The translations under genes and the position numbers were made by a program. Positions 17,798-32,339 of a stretch of DNA of 45,825 nt are shown piece by piece. The notes beneath the pieces are model-generated. The model saw nothing but the letters and a program-made list of their open reading frames with translations, ran no database searches and was not told where the DNA came from. Where the stretch lies: NCBI GenBank assembly GCA_003388555.1, contig QQVD01000038.1, positions 1-45,825 of the forward strand, in the 5' to 3' direction. Within the stretch, counting starts at the first letter, position 1; each line of letters begins with the position of its first letter. The stretch comes from Acidobacteriota bacterium (lineage in GTDB: Bacteria > Acidobacteriota > Thermoanaerobaculia > Multivoradales > Multivoraceae).

Positions 17798-20700
17798 AGG
17801 GTCCTGGCCTCGCGCACCGAGGCCTACGACACCCCGTCGGAGCGGACCACCACCTGGGAGTACGAGGACCCGGCCTTCCCGAGCTCCGCGACCGAGATCC
17901 GCCGCGACTCCACCAGCGGCGTGGTGGGCCAGTACCGCGTCACCTCGCTGATCTACGACGCGCAGGGGAACGTGCTGGAGCGCACCGAGGAGGGTTTCGA
18001 GGCCGGCGCTGCGTTCTCGCTGACGACGGTCAACACCTACACCGCCGAAGGGCGCCTGGAGACCACCGATCCGCCGGGCGACGGCACCGCCGACACGGTC
18101 GTCTTCGACTACACCGACCCGCCTCTCGACCCGCGCGGCAACCTGCTGCTCAGGTCACGCACCGACCCCCTGGTCGGCACCACGACCTACGAGTACGACG
18201 CCTTCAACCGCCAGGAGGCGGTGACCGATCCCAACGGCCTGGTCGTGCACACGGTGTACGACGCCATGGATCGGGTGGTGGAGACCACCGTCGAAGGCTC
18301 GCTGGGCACCCTGCTGGTCACCGAGAACCGCTACGACGAGTTCGGCGACCTCTTCCAGACCGTGATGCCGGAGGGCAACGTGGTGGAGTACTCGTACGAC
18401 CACGCCGGCCGTCTCGAGACCATCGAGCGCAAGCCCGACGACCAGCCGAGCAGCCACGGTGAGCGCACCCGCTACGAGTACGACGCCGCCGGCAACCGCA
18501 CCCGCGAGGAGCAGCAGGGGTGGGACCAGGTCACCCAGTCCTGGGTCACCGCGACGTACACCATCTATGACTACGCCAGCCGCTGCCATCTCGCGAGCAC
18601 CGAGGACTCGCTCGGCAACCTCACCGAATACGCCTACGACTGCGACAGCCGGCTCGAGGCGAAGTGGAACCCGGACAACCCCTCGCTCGGCCAGACCGCG
18701 ACACCGAGCGAGATCTACACCTACGATCTGTTCGGCCGCCTGGCGACGGTCTCCGCTCCCTGGGCGAACAGTGCGACGTTCGTGACCACCAGCTACGACT
18801 ACGACGTCCAGGACCACCTCGACACGGTGACCGATGCCGAAGGCAACGTGACGACCTACGTGTACAGCGACCGGGATCTGCTGACCTCCGAGACGTCGAT
18901 CGCCTCGGGCACCAAGACCCACGCCTACGACGCCGGCGGCAACCTCACCTCGACGACCGACGCGCGGAGCATTCAGACGACCAGGGTCTTCGATGTCGCG
19001 GACCGGGTGACGCAGGTCACCTACCCGACGTCGAGTCTCGACGTGACCTACGGCTACGACCAGGGGCCCGACGCCCTCGGCAGGCTGAGCTCGATCACCC
19101 GCGGCGGCGCGACGCTCGACTTCACCTACGACGAGTTCGGCCGGCAGGTGCAGGACGGAGACCTCGCCTACGGCTACGACGACACCCTGAGACGAGCCAC
19201 AGGCGAGGCGATGGAGACAGCCGATCGCCCGCTTGCGGGAGATCGCCGGCTGTCCACGGCAACCGGGACCAGATCACCTATCCCTCCGGTCTCGTCGCCG
19301 ACTACGACTTCGACTACGCCGACCGCGAGGAGTCGGTCACGGTGGCGCCGCCTCTGGGCAGCGCCACCCCGATCGCCACCGGCGCTCTCTACTACCCGGC
19401 CGGCCCGCTGGCCGAGCTCCAGCTCGGCAACGGCGTGCTCGAGAGTCGCTACTACGACGATCGCTACTTCCCGGACGAGATCGAGGTCAGCGGCCCGACG
19501 GCGCGCATCTGGGACTACTCGACCGACGCGGTCGGCAACGTGACGCAGATCGCCGAGTACGACGTCGTCTCCGGCGTGCCGACGCTGTCGCGCACATTTG
19601 GCTACGGGTATCAGGCGCACCAGCACTATCTGACTTCGTTCGCTGGCACCGGTATGGGAACGCGCGACTGGACCTATGACGGAATCGGCAACCGGACCAG
19701 CGAGCAGGTCGCGGAGGTGGCGCCACAGCCGTACAACTACGTGAAGAACGGCACCGGCAAGGGGCCGGGAGGCGGCAACACCCCGCTGCTGAAGAACATC
19801 GCCGAGACCACCGCCACCTACACCTACAACGCCGCCGGCGCGCTCGCGGCGATGCAGCGCGCCAGCGGCAGCGTGACGTTCGCGCTCGGCGTGCTCGACG
19901 ACGAGCGTCTCGGCTCGGTGTCGCGCAGCACCGGAGAGTCGTCGAGCTTCAGCTACGACGGCCGCAGTTTCCTGCGCAGCGCTGACGAGGCGTCGACCGG
20001 CGGCTACAGCCGACCGACGTACTCGAGCGCCGGGGTGGTGCACCACCTCGAGCGGCGCGACAGCACGGCGTCGCCGGTGGAGAACGTGTGGTACGTCTAC
20101 CTGGCGGGCCGACCGGTGGCGCAGTACACGGAAGTGGCCGGTGGTGCGTCACAGTGGACGTACCTGACGGTCGACCACCTCGGAACACCGCTGCTCGCCA
20201 CCGACGCGAGCGGCAGCGCGGTCTGGCAGGGGCCGCTGGATCCGTTCGGCGCCGATCCGCTGCGCGACACGCCGAGTGGAGCCCTGGAGGCGGGGCTGCG
20301 GCTACGTCTGCCGGGGCAGTGGGAGGACGAGATCTGGCAGGATGCGACGTTGGGTGCGGACGTGTACTACAACGTGCACAGGTGGTATGAGATGGGGACG
20401 GGGAGGTATACGAGGGTTGATCCGTTGGGGTTGGAAGGTGGTTTGAATCTCTTTGGCTACGCTCAGGGCAATCCCCTCTTTCTCATCGATGTGCTTGGCC
20501 TCGACACTGCTCAGGTGTGCTGCCGGCCCATACATCCAGCTGCGGCTATTCGTTGGGTCAACGTTGCGATCGGCCTCGTCGAGGCTCTCATTCCGCAGAC
20601 GCGTGACCTTATTCCTCTGGCGAGACACTGCTATATTAGACAGGTCGACGACGCTGGCAAGACAGTGCAAACTTGGGGGCTGCTGAACAAGAGTGGGCTC

Positions 20701-21015
20701 GCCAAGGCAAGAAGGGGCGACGACGCTGACAAAGGTTATACCCCTCGCAACGGAGAGTGCGGAGCCCCAATCTGCTTCTCAGAAGAGATGGGAAGGTGTC
20801 TTGACACCAAGACATGGGAATATGCGACACGCAAGTACCCAGTTTTTGCCGGCGGTGTCACCCCGGGTTGGCCCTTTGATTCTACCGCCGCGCCCAACAG
20901 CAACTCTTTTGCACAGGTTGTTTCAAGTTCGTGTGGAGTCAACGAACCCGGCTTTGTAAGTGAGAGGGAAACGCCGGGATGGTTTTATTGGAGGTTGGCG
21001 CAAAGAGGACGCTAG
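17798..21015 (+). pseudogene. Rhs/YD-repeat protein remnant with intact C-terminal tip
   Basis: YD-repeat sequence starts abruptly near 17798 in a frame open from 17651 that has no ATG, GTG or TTG before 17921, so the 5' part is missing. YD repeats follow (YEYDAFNRQEAVTDPNGLVV, YSYDHAGRLETIERKPD and others). Near 19190-19262 the frame changes by one at a palindromic insert; from 19262 the Rhs core resumes (RDQITYPSGLVADYDFDYAD). It ends with the Rhs hallmark RYTRVDPLGLEGGLNLFGYAQGNP at about 20400-20480. After it comes a tip of about 170 aa with RHCYI, several Cys residues and APNSNSFAQVV, which may be an NlpC/LRAT-like fold but is not assigned. GC falls from about 73% in the core to about 52-55% in the tip (two 60-bp samples counted). 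Rhs proteins deliver C-terminal toxins; this one probably cannot be made full-length. Confidence 0.8.
19217..19253. repeat. Small palindromic insert at the Rhs frameshift
   Basis: ACAGCCG (19217-19223) pairs perfectly with CGGCTGT (19247-19253), and inside it CCCG-CTTG-CGGG forms a second stem, giving a hairpin with an internal loop. It sits exactly where the Rhs frame switches and encodes nothing like a YD repeat, so it looks like an inserted REP/MITE-like element. Confidence 0.6.
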
Positions 21016-21552: not shown

Positions 21553-21620
21553 GGTCCCACCCTAAAAAAAGAGATCTCCTCGGGTTCAGGTTCAAAAGGT
21601 CCCACCCATTTCGGGGAGGG
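21553..21620 (+). repeat. REP-like repeats, copies 1-2
   Basis: Copy 1 at 21553 keeps GGTCCCACCC, then diverges into an A-run. Copy 2 at 21598-21620 reads GGTCCCACCCATTTCGGGG followed by AGGG. CCC-A-CCC can pair with the downstream G-runs across ATTTC, forming a short hairpin. These begin a series of about nine same-orientation copies reaching 24500. Confidence 0.7.
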
Positions 21621-21629
21621 ACTTGAAAA

Positions 21630-21723
21630 GGTCCCACCCATTTCGGGGGAGGGGCGGTCGTCGTCAACGGCCATTGGCTCGTTGAGGCGCGCTTTGAGGG
21701 CGCGCGGATGGCGGATCGAGCCC
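21630..21723 (+). repeat. REP-like two-hairpin module, copy a
   Basis: The GGTCCCACCCATTTCGGGG element (21630-21654) is followed by a GGTCGTCGTC stretch and a second hairpin GCGCGC-TTTGAGG-GCGCGC (21687-21705), ending at GGATCGAGCCC. The same paired arrangement recurs at 21754 and 22676, like a BIME composed of two REPs. Confidence 0.7.
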
Positions 21724-21753
21724 AGCCGCGCACTCCCTCTTCACCGCTGAAAG

Positions 21754-21848
21754 GGTCCCACCCATTTCGGGGAAGGACGGTCGTCGTCGTCGGCAGTCGG
21801 CTCGTTGAGGCGCGCTTTGAGGGCGCGCGGTATGGCGGATCGAGCCCT
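21754..21848 (+). repeat. REP-like two-hairpin module, copy b
   Basis: Element at 21754-21776 and second hairpin at 21810-21828. It runs straight into the 588-bp direct repeat that starts at 21839. Confidence 0.7.
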
Positions 21849-22426
21849 GCCGAGCGCTCGCGCCTCCTTCCGACCCCTCGATCTCGGCCTCCAACTGCTC
21901 CTGCGGGCGGTGTTTCTCGACGTCCAGACGCACGAATCCCGCGACGCCATGGGCGCCGGGGATCGGAGCGGTGGATTGTCGGAGCTGAGGGGGACGCGAC
22001 GGTCAGCCAGGCGCTCGAGCCCTCGCGCTCGGAGGCGGCAAGGTGACGGGGAGTCTCGAAGGGAAGCATCCTTCGGGGAACCGGACGTCGCGGTGTCCCT
22101 GCCGGAGCAGGGCCGCGGCGCGGAGGTAGGCGTCGAGGAAGGCCTTGTACGCCCGTTTGAGGAGCTTGAAGGACTCGCGGGTGGCGTGGAACCACGGCGG
22201 CGGAGAGCGTTTGGTCTTCTTGGGACGCTGGTGGGGGTGCACCCGCAGCACTCCCTGTACTCCGAGAGGACGCTTGCGCTCGGCTTCGAGTCGCTCTCTG
22301 GTGTGCTTCTCGACTCCGTCGACGAGGCGTTGCATGAGGTCTTGGTACTCGGCGTCGCTCAGGTGATCGAAGGCGGGGAGCTTGGCGAGGTGCACGGTGT
22401 TGCTGGTCGTGACGTCGGCATTCTCG
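21839..22426 (+). repeat. 588-bp direct repeat, copy A
   Basis: Reads identical to 22761-23348 with a constant offset of 922 bases; no mismatch was found by eye. It encodes, on the minus strand, the C-terminal part of a RAYT-like transposase plus sequence downstream of its stop. Identity ends inside the transposase codons for ENADV. Confidence 0.85.
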
Positions 22427-22670
22427 AGCTCGGGCTCACCGGAGCGTCGACGTTCGTACAGCTCGGTGCGGTCGATCCAGGCGCCCTCGACGGTCTGCTC
22501 GCCGTCGACCAGTGCCTGGTGCGAGCAGGCCCCGGGCCACTCGAGGGGCGAGCTGACGAGGTTGTTGTCGCAGCCCTGCGCGACGATGTAGCGCAGGCGC
22601 TCGAGCTGCACCCGGGGCTCGGGGCTGACGACGATCGACTTATACCGCTTCGACCACACCTGGTCGCGCT
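22003..22670 (-). pseudogene. RAYT/Y1-like transposase, C-terminal remnant A
   Basis: The reading frame from about 22670 to the stop at 22003 encodes QVWSKRYKSIVVSPEPRVQL, CDNNLVSSPLEWPGACSHQA, GAWIDRTELYERRR and the C-terminal RSPPPWFHATRESFKLLKRA ... VRFPEGCFPSRLPVT. This matches, from memory, the C-terminal two thirds of REP-associated tyrosine (Y1, IS200-like) transposases found in myxobacteria and acidobacteria. The N-terminal part with the HUH histidines is absent: upstream of 22670 the sequence is a REP-like module and the tail of copy B. The frame is open further upstream to 22872, but that part is antisense repeat DNA. Not expected to be active. Confidence 0.65.
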
Positions 22671-22675
22671 GAAAA

Positions 22676-22771
22676 GGTCCCACCCATTTCGGGGGAGGGG
22701 CGGTCGTCGTCAGCGGCGATCGGCTCGTTGAGGCGCGCTTTGAGGGCGCGTGGACGGCGTATCGAGCCCTG
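22676..22771 (+). repeat. REP-like two-hairpin module, copy c
   Basis: Element at 22676-22700 and second GCGCGC hairpin region near 22731-22750 (right arm slightly changed, GCGCGT). It interrupts the transposase remnant A and leads into copy B of the 588-bp repeat, exactly as copy b leads into copy A. Confidence 0.7.
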
Positions 22772-23348
22772 CCGAGCGCTCGCGCCTCCTTCCGACCCCT
22801 CGATCTCGGCCTCCAACTGCTCCTGCGGGCGGTGTTTCTCGACGTCCAGACGCACGAATCCCGCGACGCCATGGGCGCCGGGGATCGGAGCGGTGGATTG
22901 TCGGAGCTGAGGGGGACGCGACGGTCAGCCAGGCGCTCGAGCCCTCGCGCTCGGAGGCGGCAAGGTGACGGGGAGTCTCGAAGGGAAGCATCCTTCGGGG
23001 AACCGGACGTCGCGGTGTCCCTGCCGGAGCAGGGCCGCGGCGCGGAGGTAGGCGTCGAGGAAGGCCTTGTACGCCCGTTTGAGGAGCTTGAAGGACTCGC
23101 GGGTGGCGTGGAACCACGGCGGCGGAGAGCGTTTGGTCTTCTTGGGACGCTGGTGGGGGTGCACCCGCAGCACTCCCTGTACTCCGAGAGGACGCTTGCG
23201 CTCGGCTTCGAGTCGCTCTCTGGTGTGCTTCTCGACTCCGTCGACGAGGCGTTGCATGAGGTCTTGGTACTCGGCGTCGCTCAGGTGATCGAAGGCGGGG
23301 AGCTTGGCGAGGTGCACGGTGTTGCTGGTCGTGACGTCGGCATTCTCG
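22761..23348 (+). repeat. 588-bp direct repeat, copy B
   Basis: Partner of 21839-22426. Together with the modules b and c, the duplicated unit is about 675 bp. Beyond 23348 the two copies have no similarity. Confidence 0.85.
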
Positions 23349-23614
23349 GGCGCGCCTTCGGAGTGCTCGCGAGCGCGTAGGGCGGCGCGGCGGGCGGACT
23401 TCGCGGGGTCGGCCGGGTCGGTGAATGGAGCCGGGCCGGCATCGCTGGCAGCGGGGGCTGCGGAATCGGCTTCAGTCTCAGCACGATCGGCAGCACCCTC
23501 CGCAGCTCCGGTCTCGCCGAGCAGATCGCCCAGCTCGGGCTCGAAGGCCCAGGCCAGTGCCTCGAGCTCCTCGAGCACCTCCGGGGTCGGTGTCCAGCGC
23601 AGTTTCTTCGCCAT
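22925..23614 (-). pseudogene. Chimeric ORF ending in RAYT-like transposase C-terminus B
   Basis: A 229-aa open frame from ATG 23614. Residues 1 to about 89 (MAKKLRWTPTPEVLEELEAL then an Ala/Glu/Pro-rich stretch) are unrelated to the corresponding part of copy A. From ENADVTTSNTVHLAKL onward it is identical to the transposase C-terminus at 22003-22670. The switch coincides with the end of the 588-bp repeat, so a recombination joined a foreign N-terminus to the transposase tail. No catalytic HUH region is present and there is no ribosome binding site. It may be a dead fragment or a new fused ORF. Confidence 0.55.
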
Positions 23615-23689
23615 CTCGAGGAGAAGAACGGCGCCGAAGGGGCGCGGCTGACGCGGAGAGGAAGAGGTGGCTCAGGACCGTCCTCAGGA

Positions 23690-23732
23690 GGTCCCACCCT
23701 TTTCGGGAGGAGGTCCCACCCTTTTTCGGGAG
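23690..23732 (+). repeat. REP-like repeats, copies in tandem
   Basis: Two copies 22 bp apart: GGTCCCACCCTTTTCGGGAG at 23690 and GGTCCCACCCTTTTTCGGGA at 23712. ATTTC is replaced by TTTTC/TTTTTC, but the CCC/GGG arms are kept. Confidence 0.7.
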
Positions 23733-23864
23733 CTGGCCCGGGGCCCGGGCGGTCGGAGGTTGCCGTCGCCACCACCGGAGGACGGCGGTCGGCGTGCGGG
23801 CGGCCGGGCGGGTCGTGCACGCCGCGTGACGGCCGGGCCATCGGCAGGGTCGCTGGCGCCGGCG

Positions 23865-24077
23865 TCAGCTCGCCTTCTTCTCCTCGTAGCGGGCGATCAG
23901 CTCGCGCACTTCGGGCACCAGGGGAGGCGGGACCGCCATCATCGTCGAGTCGGCGAAGGCCGCCTCGTCCTCGGCCACTGCCTCCTCCTCCGTCTGGTTC
24001 TCGTAGTACTCGATCACGTCGCGCACCCGAGCCTCGTCCCATCCGGGGGGAAACTGGTTCTGGACTTCCTTCTTCAT
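23865..24077 (-). CDS. Putative antitoxin (small acidic protein)
   Basis: 70 aa and acidic: MKKEVQNQFPPGWDEARVRD ... YYENQTEEEAVAEDEAAF ... MMAVPPPLVPEVRELIARYE. The 'FPPGWDExRVxxVIxxYExQTEEEAVAEDEAAF' pattern is one I associate with small proteins encoded beside DUF4258-type toxins. No DNA-binding fold is obvious. The start overlaps the upstream gene's stop (ATGA at 24077-24074), so the pair is translationally coupled, toxin first. Confidence 0.7.
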   Translation of the reverse strand: MKKEVQNQFPPGWDEARVRDVIEYYENQTEEEAVAEDEAAFADSTMMAVPPPLVPEVRELIARYEEKKAS

Positions 24078-24373
24078 CGTCGTCTCTTGCGCCGCTGCCG
24101 GCGGCGGTAGGCAGCCAGCGGCTTGCCTCGTAGATCATACGCTGTGATCACGAAGAGGGTGTGCGGATCCGGGTCGGGCGCGTAAAAGACGCGCAGGACC
24201 CGGCCCGCCTCCGTCGCTCCGATCACCATCCGCGAGCTCCCCCGGCCGGGCCGCTCCTCGCCGGGGTTCCGGAGGACCTCCTCCACCTCCTCCTCGCTGA
24301 CGCCGTGCTCGTAGATGTGCGGCTCGCCGGTCGTCGGGTCGAGGTAGAAGCGCAGCAGGTCCACACGGGCCAT
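24074..24373 (-). CDS. Putative DUF4258/RelE-like toxin
   Basis: 99 aa, basic C-terminus (AYRRRQRRKRRR). Core pattern HIYEHGVSEEEVEEVLRNPG ... VIGATEAGRVLRVFYAP ... LFVITAYDLRGKP matches the DUF4258/BrnT-like toxin group: 'H..ERGIS..EVE..L..P', then a beta-hairpin 'R.L.V.Y' and 'VITAY'. Such proteins are thought to have a RelE-like fold and act on mRNA, but activity is not shown for this one. GGAGGAGG lies about 10 bases upstream of ATG 24373. The gene order toxin-antitoxin is reversed relative to most type II systems, as in higBA. Confidence 0.7.
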   Translation of the reverse strand: MARVDLLRFYLDPTTGEPHIYEHGVSEEEVEEVLRNPGEERPGRGSSRMVIGATEAGRVLRVFYAPDPDPHTLFVITAYDLRGKPLAAYRRRQRRKRRR

Positions 24374-24441
24374 GCTACCCGTCCTCCTCCGCTTCCTCGT
24401 CCTCGGCCTCGACCAGGTCGAGCACCAAGAAGGTCGCAGCC

Positions 24442-24500
24442 ATTCCGGGGGAGGTCATTTCGGGGGGGTCCCAGAAAGCCCCACCCATTTCGGGGGAGGG
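24442..24500 (+). repeat. REP-like repeats, degenerate pair
   Basis: ATTCCGGGGGAGGTCATTTC (24442 on) and CCCCACCCATTTCGGGGGAG (24479 on) are diverged copies of the same element. They lie at the right edge of the accessory island, just upstream of the toxin gene. Confidence 0.6.
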
Positions 24501-24781: not shown

Positions 24782-27700
24782 GTGCGTCGCCATTCGATCA
24801 TTCCAATCCCATCCCGCCTTCTGGTCTCGTGTCTCCTCGCCGCCCTCTGGGTGCAGCCGACGGGGTCGTCGGCCCAGACCACGTTTGCGCCGCAGCAGGT
24901 CGTCGAGAACCCCTTCACGAGGGTCAGCGCCATCTCGGTGGCGCCTCTCGACGGCGACGACGAGCCCGACGTCTTCGCCCTCAGCGAGGAGACCAACCGC
25001 GTCAGTGTGATCTTCAACGGTGGCGGCGGTGGCTCCTGGTCCGCCAGCGACCAGGCGAACGGCGAACGGCCCCGGCAGACCAGTTTCGGGGACATCGACG
25101 GCGACGACGACGTCGACCTGGTGTTCACCGACTGGAACTCGAAACGTATCTACCTGCTGAGGAACAGGCTCGACGAGACGGGCGACTTCGCCCGCTCGGT
25201 CATCACCACGATCTCCGGGCGCCCGGATGGCGTGATGGTGGTGGACGTCGACCTCGACACCGACCTCGACATCGTCTTCACGAACCGGGCGCACGGCAGC
25301 TACCACTGGATCGAGAACGTCGACGGCAACGGCTCGTCCTGGACCCGCCGCAACATCGGCAGCGCCACCGACGGCGCCCAGACGGTCTGGGCTGGCGACA
25401 TCGACGACGACGGTGACATCGACGTCGCCGGCGGCGCGGCCGAAGAAGGGGGTCAGCTCATCTGGTGGGAGAACACCGATGGAGCTGCCACCACCTGGGC
25501 CGCCCGGCCCATCACCACCGGCTTGATGATCTCCATCGATGGCGGCGACGTCGACGGCGACGGTGACATCGATCTCCTGGTCTCCGAGGCAGAGAGCCTC
25601 AGCCAGCCCGACAACTCGATCAGCTGGTTCGAGAACGTCGCGGGGGACGGTTCGAGCTGGAACGAGCACCTGATCGGAGTCGGGCCGAATGGAGCTGGCC
25701 CCAGCCGAGACATCCAGCTCGCCGACCTCGACCGCGACGGTGACCTCGACGCGGCGGGAGCCGCGAACGGCCACTGGTTCCAGAACGTCAGCGGTGACGC
25801 CTCGACGTGGAGCGAGCACACGGGCGGGCCCGGCGGCCCCTTCGGCTTCGACGCCGCCGATGCCGACGGCGATGGCGACCTCGACCTCTTCTCCGCGATC
25901 CGGGGCAGCAACCGGATCGTCTGGTCGGAGAACCTGAAGTGCGATCCCGACGACGACGACGACGACGGGGACGGCTACGTCAACGGCTGCGACCTCTGTC
26001 CGGGAGGCGACGACGGGGTCGACGCGGACGGCGATCTGATACCCGACGACTGCGAGGTGCGCTCGATCGCGATCGACAACGTGACCCTGGCGGAGGGCAC
26101 CGGGGGGACGACGGACTTCGTCTTCACCGTCACCTTGACGGGTGACGCGCCCACGCCGTTCTCGGTCGACTACTCGACGAGCGCGGTGACGGCCACGGCG
26201 GGCAGCGACTACGACGCGACGCCGGGCACGATCTTCTTCGCGGGAGACGACGGCGAGACCCAGACGATCACCGTGTCGGTCGCGGCCGACGCCATCCTCG
26301 AGCCCGACGAGACCTTCACCGTCGAGCTCGAGCATCCCTCGGACGGCGGCACACTGGTCAGCGACTCGAGCGGTCTCGGCACCATCGAGGACGACGACGC
26401 CTCCTCGCTCTCGATCGACGACGTGACGGCCCTCGAGGGCGCCGCCGGGACCACCGGTTTCGTGTTCACCGTCACCCTCTCCGGCCCGGTGCAGGGCGGG
26501 GTCAGCGTCGACTACGCGACCGCCGACGGCACCGCCACCGCCCCCGGCGACTACGCCGCCACCTCGGGGACGCTGTCCTTCGACGGATCGACCGCCGCGA
26601 CGCAGACGGTGACCGTCTTCGTCGACGGCGACGACGTCGTCGAGGTCGACGAGACCTTCACGGTGGATCTCTCGAACATCTCGAGCTCGGGCGTCACTCC
26701 GGCCGACCTCATGGGCGTCGGCACCATCCAGAACGACGACGCGGCCTCCCTCACCATCAACGACGCCACCGTCTTCGAGGGCGACGGCGGCTCCACCACC
26801 AACCTCATCTTCACGCTCACCCTCTCGGGCGTCGTCGAGGGCGGCTTCAGCGTCCCCTTCGAGACCGCCGACGGCAGCGGTGCCAACGCGGCCACCGCAG
26901 GTGAGGACTACGTGTCCACCTCCGGCAACCGTACCTTCTTCGGTTTCGACGGCGAGACGAAGACCGTCACCGTGACCGTCCTCGGTGACGACGGCGTCGA
27001 GGCCGACGAGACGCTCCTGGTGCAGCTCGGGACACCCACCGTGGGCGGCGTCGGGGTCGCCGATGCGGTGGGCGAGGGCACCCTCCTGAACGACGACACC
27101 GCCACGCTGACGATCGACGACCCCACGGTGGTCGAGGGCGACGGCCCGGGTACCAGCGACCTCGTCTACACCGTCACTCTCCACGGCGACCTCCCACAGG
27201 GCTTCACGGTCTCCTTCCACACCGCGAACGGCAGCGCCTCGGCGGGTGCGGACTACACCGCCGCGGCCGACAAGCTCGCCTTCACGGGCACGGAAGGAGA
27301 GACCCAGACCGTCACGGTCACCGTCACGGGCGACGACGTGACAGAGGACGACGAGACCGTCCTCGTGGTGCTCGGCACCCCCTCTCATCCCGACGTCGAG
27401 GTGGTCCCCGACTCGGTGGGCGTCGGCACCATCGAGAACGACGACACCGCCACCCTCGAGGTCGACGATCCGACCGTCGTCGAGGGCAACAGCGGCAGCA
27501 GGAGCCTGGTCTTCACCATCACCTTGGCGGGCGAGGTCGACGACAGCTTCACCGTCTCCTACGCGACCGCCGACGGCACCGGAGTAGACGCCGCCACCGC
27601 CAGCGAGGACTACACGCCGACCACCGGCAACCGCACCTTCTCCGGCTTCGACGGCGAGACGGAAACGGTCACCGTCACCATTCTCGGTGACGCCGTCGTC

Positions 27701-29065
27701 GAGCCGGACGAGACCTTCGAGCTCCAGCTCGGTCTGCCCTCGAACGACGACGTCCTCCTCGGCGCCCCCGGCGTCGGCACCATCGAGAACGACGACATCG
27801 CCTTCCTGACGATCGGCGACACCGCGGTCGTCGAAGGCGCCGACGGGACGACCACGGGTCTCGTCTTCACGGTCAGCCTCTCGGGCGACGTCGAGGATGG
27901 CTTCAGCGTGCCCTTCCAGACCACGAGCGGCGGATCCGCCACCGCCGGCGAGGACTACGTCGCCACCTCGGGCAGCGTGGCCTTCGATGGCAGCGACGGC
28001 GAGACCGGGAGCGTCAGCGTCACCGTCAACGGCGACGCCGTCGTCGAGAGCGACGAGACGGTGCTGGTCGGGCTCGGGGAGCCCTCCACGAGCGGCGTCG
28101 TGGTGCTCGACGCGAGCGGCACGGGCACCATCCAGGACGACGACAGTGCGACCGTGTCGATCGGCGACGCGCTCGGAGGCGAGGGTGACAGCGGCACCAC
28201 CGCTTTCTCCTTCGAGGTCACTCTCACCGGGGGCGTCCAGGGCGGCTTCACGGTCGCCTACGCCACCCAGGACGACACCGCGACGACGGCCGGCGGGGAC
28301 TACCTCGCGAGCTCCGGGTCGCTGGTCTTCTCGGGCACGGACGGCGAGGTCGAGACCGTCGTCGTCGAGGTGGTGGGCGACACCGAGAACGAGGACGACG
28401 AGACCTTCCTCGTCGTGCTCACCGAGCCCGCCGCGTCGAACGTCAGCCTCGGCGACGGCACCGGAGAGGGTCTGATCGCGGACGACGACGTGCTCCTCAC
28501 CGTCAGTGTCGACGGCTCCGGCAACGTCGCCTCGAACCCCGCCGGCATCGACTGCGGCGACGGCGGCGCCGACTGCGACGAGGTCTACCCGTCGGGCACC
28601 GTCGTCGACCTGACGCCTACCCCGGCCGAGGCCTGGGTCTTCGACGCTTTCACCGGCGATCTCGACTGCAGCGATGGCGCGGTGACGCTGTCCTTCGACA
28701 CCACCTGCACCGCCGTCTTCGTCCCCATCGACAACACGGGTCAGCTCGGCGTCGGCTTCGGCGGTGACGGCTTCGGGGTGATCACGTCCTCTCCGCCGGG
28801 CATCGACTGCGACCGTGACGGCGAGCCCTCGGACTGCTCGGCCACCTTCGACGTCGGCACCACCGTCGAGCTGACGGTAGAGGTCACCAGCATCGACACC
28901 AGCTTCGACGGCTGGACCGGTGACCCCGACTGCGACGACGGTCTCGTCGATCTCGACACGGCAGGCCAGACCGTCGCCTGCACCGCCGTCCTCACCGTCA
29001 CCCCCCTCTTCGCCGACGGCTTCGAGTCCGGCGACACCTCCACCTGGTCACAGACGACTCCGTGA
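24782..29065 (+). CDS. Giant secreted FG-GAP/Calx-beta repeat protein 1
   Basis: 1427 aa from GTG 24782, with GAGGAG five bases upstream. A signal peptide (LLVSCLLAALWVQPTGSSAQ) is followed by FG-GAP/VCBS-like repeats to about residue 390 (ISVAPLDGDDEPDVFALSEE, DVDGDGDIDLLVSEA, DLDRDGDLDAAG). An Asp-rich thrombospondin-3-like Ca2+ segment (DPDDDDDDGDGYVNGCDLCP) leads to seven tandem Calx-beta domains of about 110 aa, each with 'DD.T..EG..GTT', 'DY..TSG...F.G..GET.TV.V', 'E.DETF.V.L' and 'G.GTI.NDD'. Two Cys-containing C-terminal repeats (GNVASNPAGIDCGDGGADCD) and the tail LFADGFESGDTSTWSQTTP close it. Expected to be a Ca2+-stabilised cell-surface or released protein; ligand unknown. A paralogue follows after 67 bp. 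Confidence 0.88.
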   Translation: MRRHSIIPIPSRLLVSCLLAALWVQPTGSSAQTTFAPQQVVENPFTRVSAISVAPLDGDDEPDVFALSEETNRVSVIFNGGGGGSWSASDQANGERPRQTSFGDIDGDDDVDLVFTDWNSKRIYLLRNRLDETGDFARSVITTISGRPDGVMVVDVDLDTDLDIVFTNRAHGSYHWIENVDGNGSSWTRRNIGSATDGAQTVWAGDIDDDGDIDVAGGAAEEGGQLIWWENTDGAATTWAARPITTGLMISIDGGDVDGDGDIDLLVSEAESLSQPDNSISWFENVAGDGSSWNEHLIGVGPNGAGPSRDIQLADLDRDGDLDAAGAANGHWFQNVSGDASTWSEHTGGPGGPFGFDAADADGDGDLDLFSAIRGSNRIVWSENLKCDPDDDDDDGDGYVNGCDLCPGGDDGVDADGDLIPDDCEVRSIAIDNVTLAEGTGGTTDFVFTVTLTGDAPTPFSVDYSTSAVTATAGSDYDATPGTIFFAGDDGETQTITVSVAADAILEPDETFTVELEHPSDGGTLVSDSSGLGTIEDDDASSLSIDDVTALEGAAGTTGFVFTVTLSGPVQGGVSVDYATADGTATAPGDYAATSGTLSFDGSTAATQTVTVFVDGDDVVEVDETFTVDLSNISSSGVTPADLMGVGTIQNDDAASLTINDATVFEGDGGSTTNLIFTLTLSGVVEGGFSVPFETADGSGANAATAGEDYVSTSGNRTFFGFDGETKTVTVTVLGDDGVEADETLLVQLGTPTVGGVGVADAVGEGTLLNDDTATLTIDDPTVVEGDGPGTSDLVYTVTLHGDLPQGFTVSFHTANGSASAGADYTAAADKLAFTGTEGETQTVTVTVTGDDVTEDDETVLVVLGTPSHPDVEVVPDSVGVGTIENDDTATLEVDDPTVVEGNSGSRSLVFTITLAGEVDDSFTVSYATADGTGVDAATASEDYTPTTGNRTFSGFDGETETVTVTILGDAVVEPDETFELQLGLPSNDDVLLGAPGVGTIENDDIAFLTIGDTAVVEGADGTTTGLVFTVSLSGDVEDGFSVPFQTTSGGSATAGEDYVATSGSVAFDGSDGETGSVSVTVNGDAVVESDETVLVGLGEPSTSGVVVLDASGTGTIQDDDSATVSIGDALGGEGDSGTTAFSFEVTLTGGVQGGFTVAYATQDDTATTAGGDYLASSGSLVFSGTDGEVETVVVEVVGDTENEDDETFLVVLTEPAASNVSLGDGTGEGLIADDDVLLTVSVDGSGNVASNPAGIDCGDGGADCDEVYPSGTVVDLTPTPAEAWVFDAFTGDLDCSDGAVTLSFDTTCTAVFVPIDNTGQLGVGFGGDGFGVITSSPPGIDCDRDGEPSDCSATFDVGTTVELTVEVTSIDTSFDGWTGDPDCDDGLVDLDTAGQTVACTAVLTVTPLFADGFESGDTSTWSQTTP

Positions 29066-29132
29066 TCCTCGTTCCCATCGCCACGCTCGCCCTTCCGGGC
29101 TCTGGCCGTCTCAGCCCTTGAGGGAGAACCCC

Positions 29133-32100
29133 ATGACCTCTCGCATCCTCGTCGCACTTCTGGCTTCCACCATCGGTCTTTGTGCGAGCCGCGTCGTCGG
29201 CCAGACCGACTTCGGTCCCGAGATCGAGATCCTGTCCCAGGGCTCCGTCAACGGCGTCAGCGCCGGCGACCTCGATGGCGCGCCCGGAGCCGACGTCTTC
29301 GCTGGCGCCGAGTCCCCTTCGACACTGTACGTGGCCTTCCAGGGGGCCGGCGGGACCTGGAGCGACACGGAGCTCACCCCCGGCTCGCGCAGCCGCGCCG
29401 TCGAGCTCGGCGACCTCGATGGCGACGGCGATCTCGACCTCGTCTACTCCGACTTCGGAGGCAGCCTCTTCTGGCGGTCGAACGACCTCGACGTCTCGGG
29501 CACCTTCCTCCCTCGCCAGGAGCTCGGCATGGTCGGCGGCGCCCAGGGTGTCTTCATCGTCGACCTCGACGGCGATGGCAACGGCGAGGGCGATCTGGAC
29601 GTTCTCCTGGCCGGCCGCATCGACGACGCCTACTACTGGTTCGAGAACGTCGGAGGCGACGGCTCGTCCTGGACGCAGCACCTGATCCAGAACGGCATCA
29701 ACGCGGCGCAGGCGATCTGGGGCGGTGACATCGACGGCGACGGTCTCGTCGACGTGGTCGGCGGCTCGGCCTCGGGATCGGGAAAGCTCGCCTGGTACGA
29801 GAACCGCATGGACGACGCCGGGCCGGCGTGGATCGAGCACGACATCGCTCTGGGCAGCCTCAACGCGGTGAGCGGGGCCGATCTCGACAAGGACGGCGAC
29901 CTCGACATCCTCGTCCAGGACTCGGGGCTCACCGAGATCCGCTGGTGGGAGAACAGGTTGGGTGACGACCCGGCCTGGGTCGTCCACACGATCGCCATGG
30001 TCTCGTCCGCCGGACGGGGCCTGGATGCGGTGGATCTGGACTTCGACGGCGACCTCGACGTGGTCGGCTCGAGAGACGGCGAGTGGTACGAGAACGTCGA
30101 CGGAGATGCCCTCAGCTGGACCGCATGGCCGCTCTCCCCCGGTACGGCGGGCGACCTCGCCGACACCGACGCCGAGGACGTGGACGGCGACGGCGACGTC
30201 GACATCGTCGCCGCGCGTGTCGATCTCGACAAGGTCTCGTGGTGGCCGAATCTCTCGTGCTCGCCCGGAGATCCCGATGACGACGACGACGGCGTGTTCG
30301 ATGGCTGCGACATCTGCGAAGGCTTCGACGACAACGAGGACGAGGACGGGGACGGGGTTCCGGACGGCTGCGACAGCTGTCCCATCGGGGACAACAACAT
30401 CGACACCGACGGAGACGGCGTGCCGGACGCCTGCGACGGACTGCGCGTCGTGAACGTGGCGATGGACGAAGGGGACACCGGCACTACACCGCTCACCTTC
30501 AGGATCATCCTCGGCGGCGACACCGGGCCCTTCACCGTCGGCTACACGGTGACGGAGGGTACCGCCACCACCCCCGAGGATTACCACGACACCTCGGGCA
30601 CGATCGCGTTCGCGGGCGACGACGGCGAGGAACACGTCTTCACGGTCCTCGGCTTCGGCGACACCATGGTCGAGGACGACGAGACCTTCACCGTCGATCT
30701 CACTCTCGAGTCGGGATCCGTCGACCTCGTCGACCCGGTGGGCGTCGGCACGCTCGGCAACGACGACGTGGCCACCCTCGGTCTCGACGACGTAAGCCAT
30801 GCCGAGGGCGACAGCGGCACCCACCGCTTCACCTTCACCCTCACCCTCGACAAGGACGTCGACGACGGGTTCGAGGTCGACTACGCCACCCAGGCGATCA
30901 CCGCCACCCAGGGCAGCGACTACGTCGGCCACGCCGGGAGCGTCTTCTTCGCCGGCGACGCCTTCGAGCGGCACGCCGTCACAGTGCTCGTCAAGGGCGA
31001 CACGGTGGCGGAGGACGACGAGGTCTTCCACCTCGAAGTCAGCTCGGACCATCCGGGAGTCGTCAGCGACGAGAACGGGGTGGGCACCATCCTGGACGAC
31101 GACACGGTCTATCTCCTGGTCGACTCGCCATCGGTCGTCGAAGGGAACGCAGGAACCGTCGACCTCGTCTTCACCCTCGAGCTCACCCACGACACCGAAC
31201 CGTTCGACGTCGACTACGAGACCATCGCCAACAGCGCCGACGGCGAGGACTACGAGGAGATCATCGACACCGTGTCCTTCGCCGGAACGGCCGGAGAGAC
31301 GCACACCGTAGCCATCTCCGTCACCGGCGACCTGGTGGTGGAAGGTGACGAGACGTTCTCGCTCCACCTCAGCCCGACGGATCCGGAGATCGTCGCGAGC
31401 GACGCGACCGGCACCATCCTGGACGACGACAGCGCCGCGGTCGGCATCGACGACGTCACCATGGTCGAGGGCGACACCGGGACTACGGACTTCGTCTTCA
31501 CGATCTCACTCACCGCTCCCGTCGAGGATGCCTTCGACGTCGGCTTCCAGACCATCGACCAGAGCGCGACGGCCGGGAGCGACTACACGGCCACCTCCGG
31601 ATCGGTCTCACTCGGCGGCGGCAGCTCCTCGCAGACCGTCACCGTCGTCGTGCATGGCGACGGCTTCGGCGAGAGCGACGAGCATTTCGTGGTCGAGGTC
31701 TTCGCCACTCTTCCCCAGGGCGTCACCTTCACCGACGAGCTCGGATACGGCCACGTGCTCGACGACGACGTCGTCCTCGACCTGACCGTCGAAGGCCTGG
31801 GACACGTCGGCTCGAGCCCGCCCGGTATCGACTGCGGCAACGGCGCCCTCGACTGCGACCAGCTCTACCCGATCGACACCGTCGTCGGGTTGACCGCCAC
31901 TCCCGAGCCCGATTGGACCTTCGCCGGCTTCAGGGGCGATACGGATTGCGACGACGGCTCGGTCACGATGACCGGCGCCACCGCATGCATCGCGACCTTC
32001 GTGCTCGACCAGGGCGTGATCGATGTCGGCTTCGAAGGCTACGGTCTCGGCCTCGTCATGTCGGAGCCCTCGGGCATCGCATGCGACCGCGACGGTGATC

Positions 32101-32339
32101 CATCCGATTGCACGGCCGTCTACGACACCGGCACCGAGGTGAGCCTGTCCGTCACCGTCACCGATCCAGAGAGCACCTTCGTCGCTTGGACGGGAGACGC
32201 CGACTGCCTCGACGGTCTCGTCGTGCTGGGAACGTCGGGCGAGACCGTGCACTGCGTCGCCATCATCAACGCCACCCCCCTCTTCGCCGACGGTTTCGAG
32301 TCGGGGGACGTCACCTCTTGGACCTCCGCGGTGCCGTGA
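29133..32339 (+). CDS. Giant secreted FG-GAP/Calx-beta repeat protein 2
   Basis: 1068 aa from ATG 29133, preceded by AGGGAG. Same layout as the upstream gene: signal peptide (MTSRILVALLASTIGLCASR), FG-GAP-like repeats (GDLDGDGDLDLVYSDFG, VDLDFDGDLDVVGSRDGEWY), Asp-rich thrombospondin-3-like segment (DNNIDTDGDGVPDACDG), four Calx-beta domains, and two Cys-containing C-terminal repeats (GHVGSSPPGIDCGNGALDCD). The tail is LFADGFESGDVTSWTSAVP. It differs mainly in having four rather than seven Calx-beta units, so it arose by duplication and changed repeat number. The two are probably co-transcribed. The shared C-terminal tail resembles a sorting or secretion signal; its handling machinery is not in the window. 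Confidence 0.88.
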   Translation: MTSRILVALLASTIGLCASRVVGQTDFGPEIEILSQGSVNGVSAGDLDGAPGADVFAGAESPSTLYVAFQGAGGTWSDTELTPGSRSRAVELGDLDGDGDLDLVYSDFGGSLFWRSNDLDVSGTFLPRQELGMVGGAQGVFIVDLDGDGNGEGDLDVLLAGRIDDAYYWFENVGGDGSSWTQHLIQNGINAAQAIWGGDIDGDGLVDVVGGSASGSGKLAWYENRMDDAGPAWIEHDIALGSLNAVSGADLDKDGDLDILVQDSGLTEIRWWENRLGDDPAWVVHTIAMVSSAGRGLDAVDLDFDGDLDVVGSRDGEWYENVDGDALSWTAWPLSPGTAGDLADTDAEDVDGDGDVDIVAARVDLDKVSWWPNLSCSPGDPDDDDDGVFDGCDICEGFDDNEDEDGDGVPDGCDSCPIGDNNIDTDGDGVPDACDGLRVVNVAMDEGDTGTTPLTFRIILGGDTGPFTVGYTVTEGTATTPEDYHDTSGTIAFAGDDGEEHVFTVLGFGDTMVEDDETFTVDLTLESGSVDLVDPVGVGTLGNDDVATLGLDDVSHAEGDSGTHRFTFTLTLDKDVDDGFEVDYATQAITATQGSDYVGHAGSVFFAGDAFERHAVTVLVKGDTVAEDDEVFHLEVSSDHPGVVSDENGVGTILDDDTVYLLVDSPSVVEGNAGTVDLVFTLELTHDTEPFDVDYETIANSADGEDYEEIIDTVSFAGTAGETHTVAISVTGDLVVEGDETFSLHLSPTDPEIVASDATGTILDDDSAAVGIDDVTMVEGDTGTTDFVFTISLTAPVEDAFDVGFQTIDQSATAGSDYTATSGSVSLGGGSSSQTVTVVVHGDGFGESDEHFVVEVFATLPQGVTFTDELGYGHVLDDDVVLDLTVEGLGHVGSSPPGIDCGNGALDCDQLYPIDTVVGLTATPEPDWTFAGFRGDTDCDDGSVTMTGATACIATFVLDQGVIDVGFEGYGLGLVMSEPSGIACDRDGDPSDCTAVYDTGTEVSLSVTVTDPESTFVAWTGDADCLDGLVVLGTSGETVHCVAIINATPLFADGFESGDVTSWTSAVP

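Follow-up and report, generated by a model that had tools for sequence, protein, structure and literature searches.

Background

Several systems in which a Y1 transposase gene is associated with repeats have been described. RAYT/REPtron systems consist of a Y1 gene located between two repeats in inverted orientation, and, according to the account given by Nunvar et al. (2010, PMC2817692), these repeats accompany the presence of the gene. The TIRtrons described by Di Nocera et al. (2013, PMC3733652) are composed of a Y1 gene (TIRYT) between inverted repeats, and part of these repeats belong to families of moderate abundance. This work gives length as a difference between TIRYTs and RAYTs, and an acidobacterial TIRYT group is on record. 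In the classification of Quentin et al. (2018, PMC6006769), 20 out of 26 TIRYTs fall into the long subclass 2.1. The same source, in its description of TnpA_Y1 class 3, reports members from Planctomycetes, Acidobacteria, and Proteobacteria with a median length of 178 aa, the HuH motif NHVH, and the Y motif YV[VI][AENY]EQ. Around these genes lie a number of atypical structures whose 5' foot reads CnGA, and the repeats can be numerous.

Here we analyzed a stretch of 45,825 bases, referred to as the window, which makes up contig C46 in its entirety; the contig belongs to a 6.8-Mb draft genome, probably from an uncultured acidobacterium. It carries a locus that we attribute with some confidence to a dead IS200/IS605-like Y1 (HuH) element of the REPtron/TIRtron type, in which end-anchored pieces were probably stacked, the catalytic part was lost, and the tails were homogenized. 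A literature search on transposase terms and motif letters revealed no description of the window locus, which does not prove that none exists.

An exact repeat of 588 bp

Positions 21839-22426 and 22761-23348 of the window are identical over exactly 588 bp at an offset of 922, and this run is bounded by mismatches on both sides. The comparison thus bore out the base-for-base identity claimed in the original prediction. The next-longest exact repeats in the window measure 43 and 42 bp. Each copy comprises the last ~140 codons and 164 bp of the 3' flank of a Y1 (HuH) transposase gene on the minus strand (Table 1). The duplication looks real and recent, but the locus shows the usual decay of an element whose type is known. 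A simple tandem duplication of a 922-bp unit was ruled out, as the sequences beyond the two tails are unrelated.

Table 1. Coordinates of features at the repeat locus of the window
Feature	Position	Strand	Description
R1	21590..21621	+	End motif only (AAAAGGTCCCACCCATTTCGGGGAGGGA), without CTGA foot
R2	21622..21745	+	End motif and ~100 bp of the element's left flank; foot is TTGA; ends at most ~12 bp from the start of R3
R3	21747..22668	+	Piece with end motif (CTGA foot at 21747) and 3' flank plus tail and middle of the transposase; breaks off at residue 165, where R4 takes over
588-bp repeat, copy 1	21839..22426		164 bp of 3' flank and ~140 codons
Transposase middle	22427..22668	-	From residue 165, with W and Y motifs inside; only beside copy 1
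R4	22669..22760	+	End motif (CTGA foot at 22669) with the second element's left flank
588-bp repeat, copy 2	22761..23348		
Transposase N-terminal extension	23349..23614	-	Residues 1-76 of the relative, in frame with tail copy 2; start codon at 23614
229-aa open frame	22925..23614	-	N-terminal extension fused to tail; HuH, W, and Y motifs absent; no Pfam/NCBIfam match
Upstream end of the element	23615..23654		DNA homology to the C21 copies ends at 23654 (23660 with one copy)
Two further end-motif-like sequences	23686..23736	+	Upstream of the gene; orientation of R1-R4; no CTGA foot

A pure assembly artefact, in which a single copy exists, is highly improbable because the 334 bp between the copies are joined to the repeat at both ends. 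This segment carries residues 165-245 and the module of R4, for which no other place in the genome exceeds 87% identity. Reasoning from a loop composed of the repeat, the 334-bp middle, and the flanks, the sequence requires a minimum of two copies. As an unlikely explanation, a genuine duplication could owe its exactness to the assembler, both copies being written from one collapsed repeat with small differences removed. The genome is a draft in 74 contigs, a run of 588 identical bases is longer than the k-mers usual for short reads, and assemblers usually write out a loop of the type A-repeat-B-repeat-C with one consensus. However, copies of the element on contig C21, which are 91.6-93.4% alike, were kept apart. 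An assembler consensus could account for the exactness of the match, but hardly for the duplication.

Intact relatives and the remaining transposase parts

The original prediction had suggested a search for further copies in the genome. This search yielded three places on contig C21 with 86-87% DNA identity (over 21904-22669), each a complete gene, as well as shorter pieces on contigs C21 and C23. The complete genes have open frames of 385-427 aa, or 385-390 aa when counted from the start they share, and all three match Y1_Tnp PF01797 with 27.9-30.1 bits at a cut-off of 23. The HuH motif NHYH and RRY..YIVAQG are present in their alignment. By match to these genes, the repeated tail, predicted to belong to a transposase, was confirmed as the C-terminus of a Y1 (HuH) tyrosine transposase. 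The full element extends from a left-end motif over ~250 bp of flank and the gene on the opposite strand to ~40 bp past the gene start (1,456 bp in the query copy). The intact C21 genes were ruled out as direct donor of the exact copy, being only 86-87% identical.

A profile of 12 proteins matched IS200-type transposases and TnpA_REP (2xm3, 4er8) at profile positions 29-142, and a PHROGs search gave no match. For the 221 residues of the left copy, an AlphaFold model with a mean pLDDT of 78.5 and a pTM of 0.56 had no PDB match by Foldseek at E 0.001 or better. Upstream of one of the intact genes on C21, an HTH_3 gene (L017 4502-4801, plus strand), which we take to be HigA-like, ends 133 bp before the transposase start.

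A tblastn search of the whole window with an intact relative (385 aa) located residues 165-385 at 22668-22006, residues 238-385 at 23371-22928, and residues 1-76 at 23614-23348. The remaining matches had E 0.017 or worse. The HuH motif (NHYH, residues 129-132) was absent from the matches, and the HuH segment (residues 77-164) was not found anywhere in the window by this search. Hence the open frame 23614-22925 joins residues 1-76 to ~246-385, and the open frame 22668-22006 corresponds to residues 165-385. That both copies lack the catalytic N-terminus, as had been proposed, is correct in so far as residues 77-164 are in neither. As a refinement, the right copy retains the N-terminal extension (residues 1-76, not catalytic) and the left copy retains the part with the W and Y motifs. 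Neither Pfam nor NCBIfam searches assigned the window copies to a family, and the Y1_Tnp domain was not found in either copy. Judged from its sequence, the locus is a dead copy, which without the HuH motif should have no transposase activity of its own.

End motifs and end-anchored pieces

Allowing up to 3 mismatches, the end motif occurs at 14 sites genome-wide, all within three element regions on C21, C23, and C46. A dispersed REP family in this genome was thereby ruled out. The original prediction that each copy is headed by a REP-like module was right in that a module precedes each copy (R3 and R4, with 10 substitutions and 2 gap positions over 92 aligned bases), but these modules are the element's own left end and not dispersed REPs. 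Folding of the end motif as DNA was not better than that of shuffled sequences (6 stretches, z -1.73 to 1.22), leaving a REP-like hairpin unsupported. All end motifs at these genes in the window's genome have the same orientation.

Seventeen end motifs from three stretches were compared, one out of 18 pattern matches having been excluded as not end-like. A CTGA foot precedes 12 of the 17, comprising 10 out of 10 on C21 and C23 and 2 out of 7 in the window. At 7 end motifs (3 in the window, 3 on C21, and 1 on C23) a piece of the element is located directly before the motif at a distance of 0 to ~12 bp, and an eighth motif is preceded by a mere 11-bp partial motif. Such pieces, of 70 and 65 bp, precede two of the complete genes on C21 (three in all); others are found elsewhere on C21 and on C23. 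One of the C21 pieces equals its neighbor over 69 bp and another is only 88% alike; therefore, the pieces differ in age or source. C23 also harbors two miniature derivatives of the element (L018 3724-4040 and 9604-9904), namely an end motif joined to a tail piece and two end motifs around ~260 bp of flank.

In the window the pieces are stacked head-to-tail in one orientation: the motif alone (R1), ~120 bp (R2), 922 bp (R3), and an internally deleted element beginning with R4. R1, R2, and R3 each stop at most ~12 bp short of the next end motif. The nearest published picture of such a stack that we found is that of large REP clusters, which the relevant part of Di Nocera et al. (PMC3733652) describes as tandem units together with flanking DNA of variable length.

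Mapped to the 1,456-bp element, R3 corresponds to positions 21-945 and the second element to positions 21-708 and 1214-1476. This map also bears on the main rival explanation, which assumes one element and one event, in which the catalytic segment (positions 946-1213, ~268 bp) was replaced by a second module and tail (positions 21-708), either by insertion with deletion or by template switching in replication. The pieces tile without overlap except for the tail, residues 1-76 and 165-245 occur once each and residues 77-164 never, a single loss of the catalytic segment suffices, and the left junction lies at most 1 bp from the CTGA foot. The R4 module, on the inserted copy, is unlike the resident R3 module, though, and the source would need a different module but an identical tail. 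We consider this replacement possible, but rather unlikely.

Divergence and history of the copies

In addition to the differences between R3 and R4 (10 substitutions and 2 gaps in 92 bp), the modules of R2 and R4 differ at 8 positions in 107 bp, and R2 and R3 by 10 differences and 3 gaps in 105 bp. In contrast, not a single difference was found between the tails over 588 bp (95% upper bound 0.5%), and 10 out of 92 versus 0 out of 588 is a clear distinction (Fisher p about 1e-9). Since the modules have diverged and the tails are identical, the tails were copied or homogenized later. This supports the recent duplication or gene conversion that had been predicted. The further statement, according to which the move required another source or recombination between modules, is not upheld, as the intact genes are only 86-87% identical and divergence is greater in the modules than in the tails. 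The best account is a recent event of exchange or copying that included the tails and left out the modules. A conversion tract ending where homology ends, at the deletion point 23348, would be natural; the data fit gene conversion and a recent copying event with another module equally well. The first 43 bp of R2 are exactly as in R4 and its second half is nearer to R3, and thus the modules look like mosaics.

Comparison of the window middle and tail with the three C21 genes resulted in dS of 0.48-0.52, dN of 0.05-0.09, and dN/dS of 0.10-0.15, or 0.10-0.18 over parts. Most of this divergence arose under purifying selection. Together with the open frames, this places the loss of the catalytic part late relative to the split from the C21 genes. 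Past purifying selection on the tail codons and a junction that is in frame and free of stops would also suit a maintained, non-catalytic 229-aa fusion protein, e.g. an end-motif binder dampening the intact transposases. Yet G+C-rich DNA (71%) yields long open frames by chance, the measured selection is mostly ancestral and the identical tails leave nothing to gauge it since, and no fold match was obtained for the tail. A maintained protein is therefore very unlikely.

As the probable course of events within a dead, stacked, and homogenized element, a full element (R4 to 23654) would have received the truncated end-anchored pieces R1, R2, and R3 at its left boundary, in the way seen at the relatives on C21 and C23. 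By analogy, this stacking may have proceeded through transposase action. Afterwards, an internal deletion would have removed residues 77-245 from the full element, and recent gene conversion (or local copying, likewise recent), reaching from the module as far as the deletion point, would have erased the differences between the two tails. We infer this order from one assembly, the window's genome being the sole one of its genus among the 60 genomes.

The repeat by itself is a decayed transposase. The value of the locus lies in the occurrence of three intact relatives, truncated pieces, and a recognizable end motif in one genome. Its junctions allow reading how such elements spread their ends, by one-end-anchored addition or by plain recombination, which is testable with an intact enzyme.

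The wider family and its motif

The intact protein has matches at E 0.001 or better in 38 out of 59 other genomes, with 36-48% identity among the matches listed. An alignment-based contig scan gave 22 loci, the named relatives being from Thermoanaerobaculia, other Acidobacteria, Deltaproteobacteria, Myxococcales, and one Trueperaceae record; a contig scan with the single protein found no relative. For the analysis of flanks, 51 loci (L033-L083) were considered, of which L062 and L064 were dropped as duplicates and L083 had no hit. Among the resulting 48, several have short flanks or are from one genome.

Within 600 bp of these 48 family genes, the motif GGTGCCASCC occurs at 33 sites in 17 loci and is absent from the other 31. 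Thirty dinucleotide shuffles gave a mean of 0.6 and a maximum of 2 sites, an enrichment that is not an independent test since the pattern was picked after viewing repeats in the same flanks. In the same loci, 33 sites in 52 kb near the genes compare with 12 sites in 92 kb of more distant DNA. Of the sites in the 17 loci, 16 are forward upstream, 13 reverse downstream, and 4 otherwise oriented. In these 17 loci, the motif is thus mostly arranged in inverted orientation about the gene, which resembles REPtrons and TIRtrons. At a single site in the relatives' flanks (shuffle mean 0.2) we found the version of the window, GGTCCCACCC, and its link to the family motif therefore rests on resemblance.

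In a second examination, now of whole genomes, the sequence AAGGTGCCASCCNNTTT (up to 1 mismatch) occurs at 295 sites in 30 of the 38 other gene-bearing genomes and at 2 sites in 2 of the 21 genomes without the gene, a comparison weakened by the fact that the 21 all belong to one genus and are not independent. Read backwards, it gave 13 sites in the gene-bearing genomes and 1 in those without the gene. Hence, the abundance of this repeat tracks gene presence, as in RAYT/REPtron systems, with a single genus representing the gene-less genomes. In several genomes with the family, copies of AAGGTGCCASCCNNTTT (one mismatch allowed) are dispersed and often form clusters; genome G053 has 53 and G028 has 42. 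No site was found in the window's own genome at the same threshold.

Taken together, we tentatively propose a long-tailed Y1 class in Thermoanaerobaculia and neighboring groups, which has its own GGTSCCASCC-like end motif (here after a CTGA foot) and might grow at its left boundary through the addition of its own pieces, anchored at the end and truncated to varying degrees. Of the pieces seen, the 922-bp one with copy 1 is the longest.

Neighboring features in the window

Next to the locus, two small genes overlapping by 4 bp (23865-24373, minus strand) are located between the end-motif-like sequences 23686-23736 and 24428-24500. The upstream gene encodes a DUF4258 protein with weak similarity to BrnT toxins below the cut-off, and the pair looks like a toxin-antitoxin type. 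On the other side, an RHS/YD-repeat protein region (17921-21015, plus strand) is split into two overlapping frames (540- and 783-aa ORFs), possibly due to a frameshift or an assembly error in one large gene. Two long adjacent open frames are situated at 24782-32339 (plus strand). The first contains repeated modules of ~115 codons with a spacing of 342-357 bp, resembling Calx-beta type repeats.

Comparison with known systems

The element shares with the IS200/IS605 family the Y1_Tnp Pfam match and the HuH, W, and Y residues. It differs in that its three complete copies, instead of being near-identical and dispersed, share 91.6-93.4% identity and are no more than 10 kb apart.

According to the description of TnpA_Y1 class 3 considered here (PMC6006769), the phylum is a point of likeness, and the CTGA foot at 12 out of 17 motifs may be another. 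In the relatives, CNGA directly precedes 13 out of 37 motifs, a count without a control set. In contrast to class 3 as described there, the proteins found here have 385-390 aa with NHYH, YIVAQG, and a long C-terminal region, and thus differ from that class in Y motif and length.

The Y1 gene with repeats whose occurrence accompanies the gene resembles RAYT/REPtron systems, but the GTAG-footed palindrome of the published account (PMC2817692) was not seen here. None of three family members reached the cut-off of 80 bits of the NCBIfam model REP_Tyr_transpos (34.8, 35.8, and 62.3 bits). With TIRtrons, as far as they are portrayed in the source (PMC3733652), the element has in common a Y1 gene, acidobacterial members, and, in 17 of the 48 loci of its relatives, flanking repeats that are mostly inverted. 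Compared by description only, the printed TIRtron motif GGGGWSAS differs from the GGTSCCASCC-like motif. We therefore file the locus as a Y1 transposase element of the REPtron/TIRtron kind, working like a REPtron or TIRtron.
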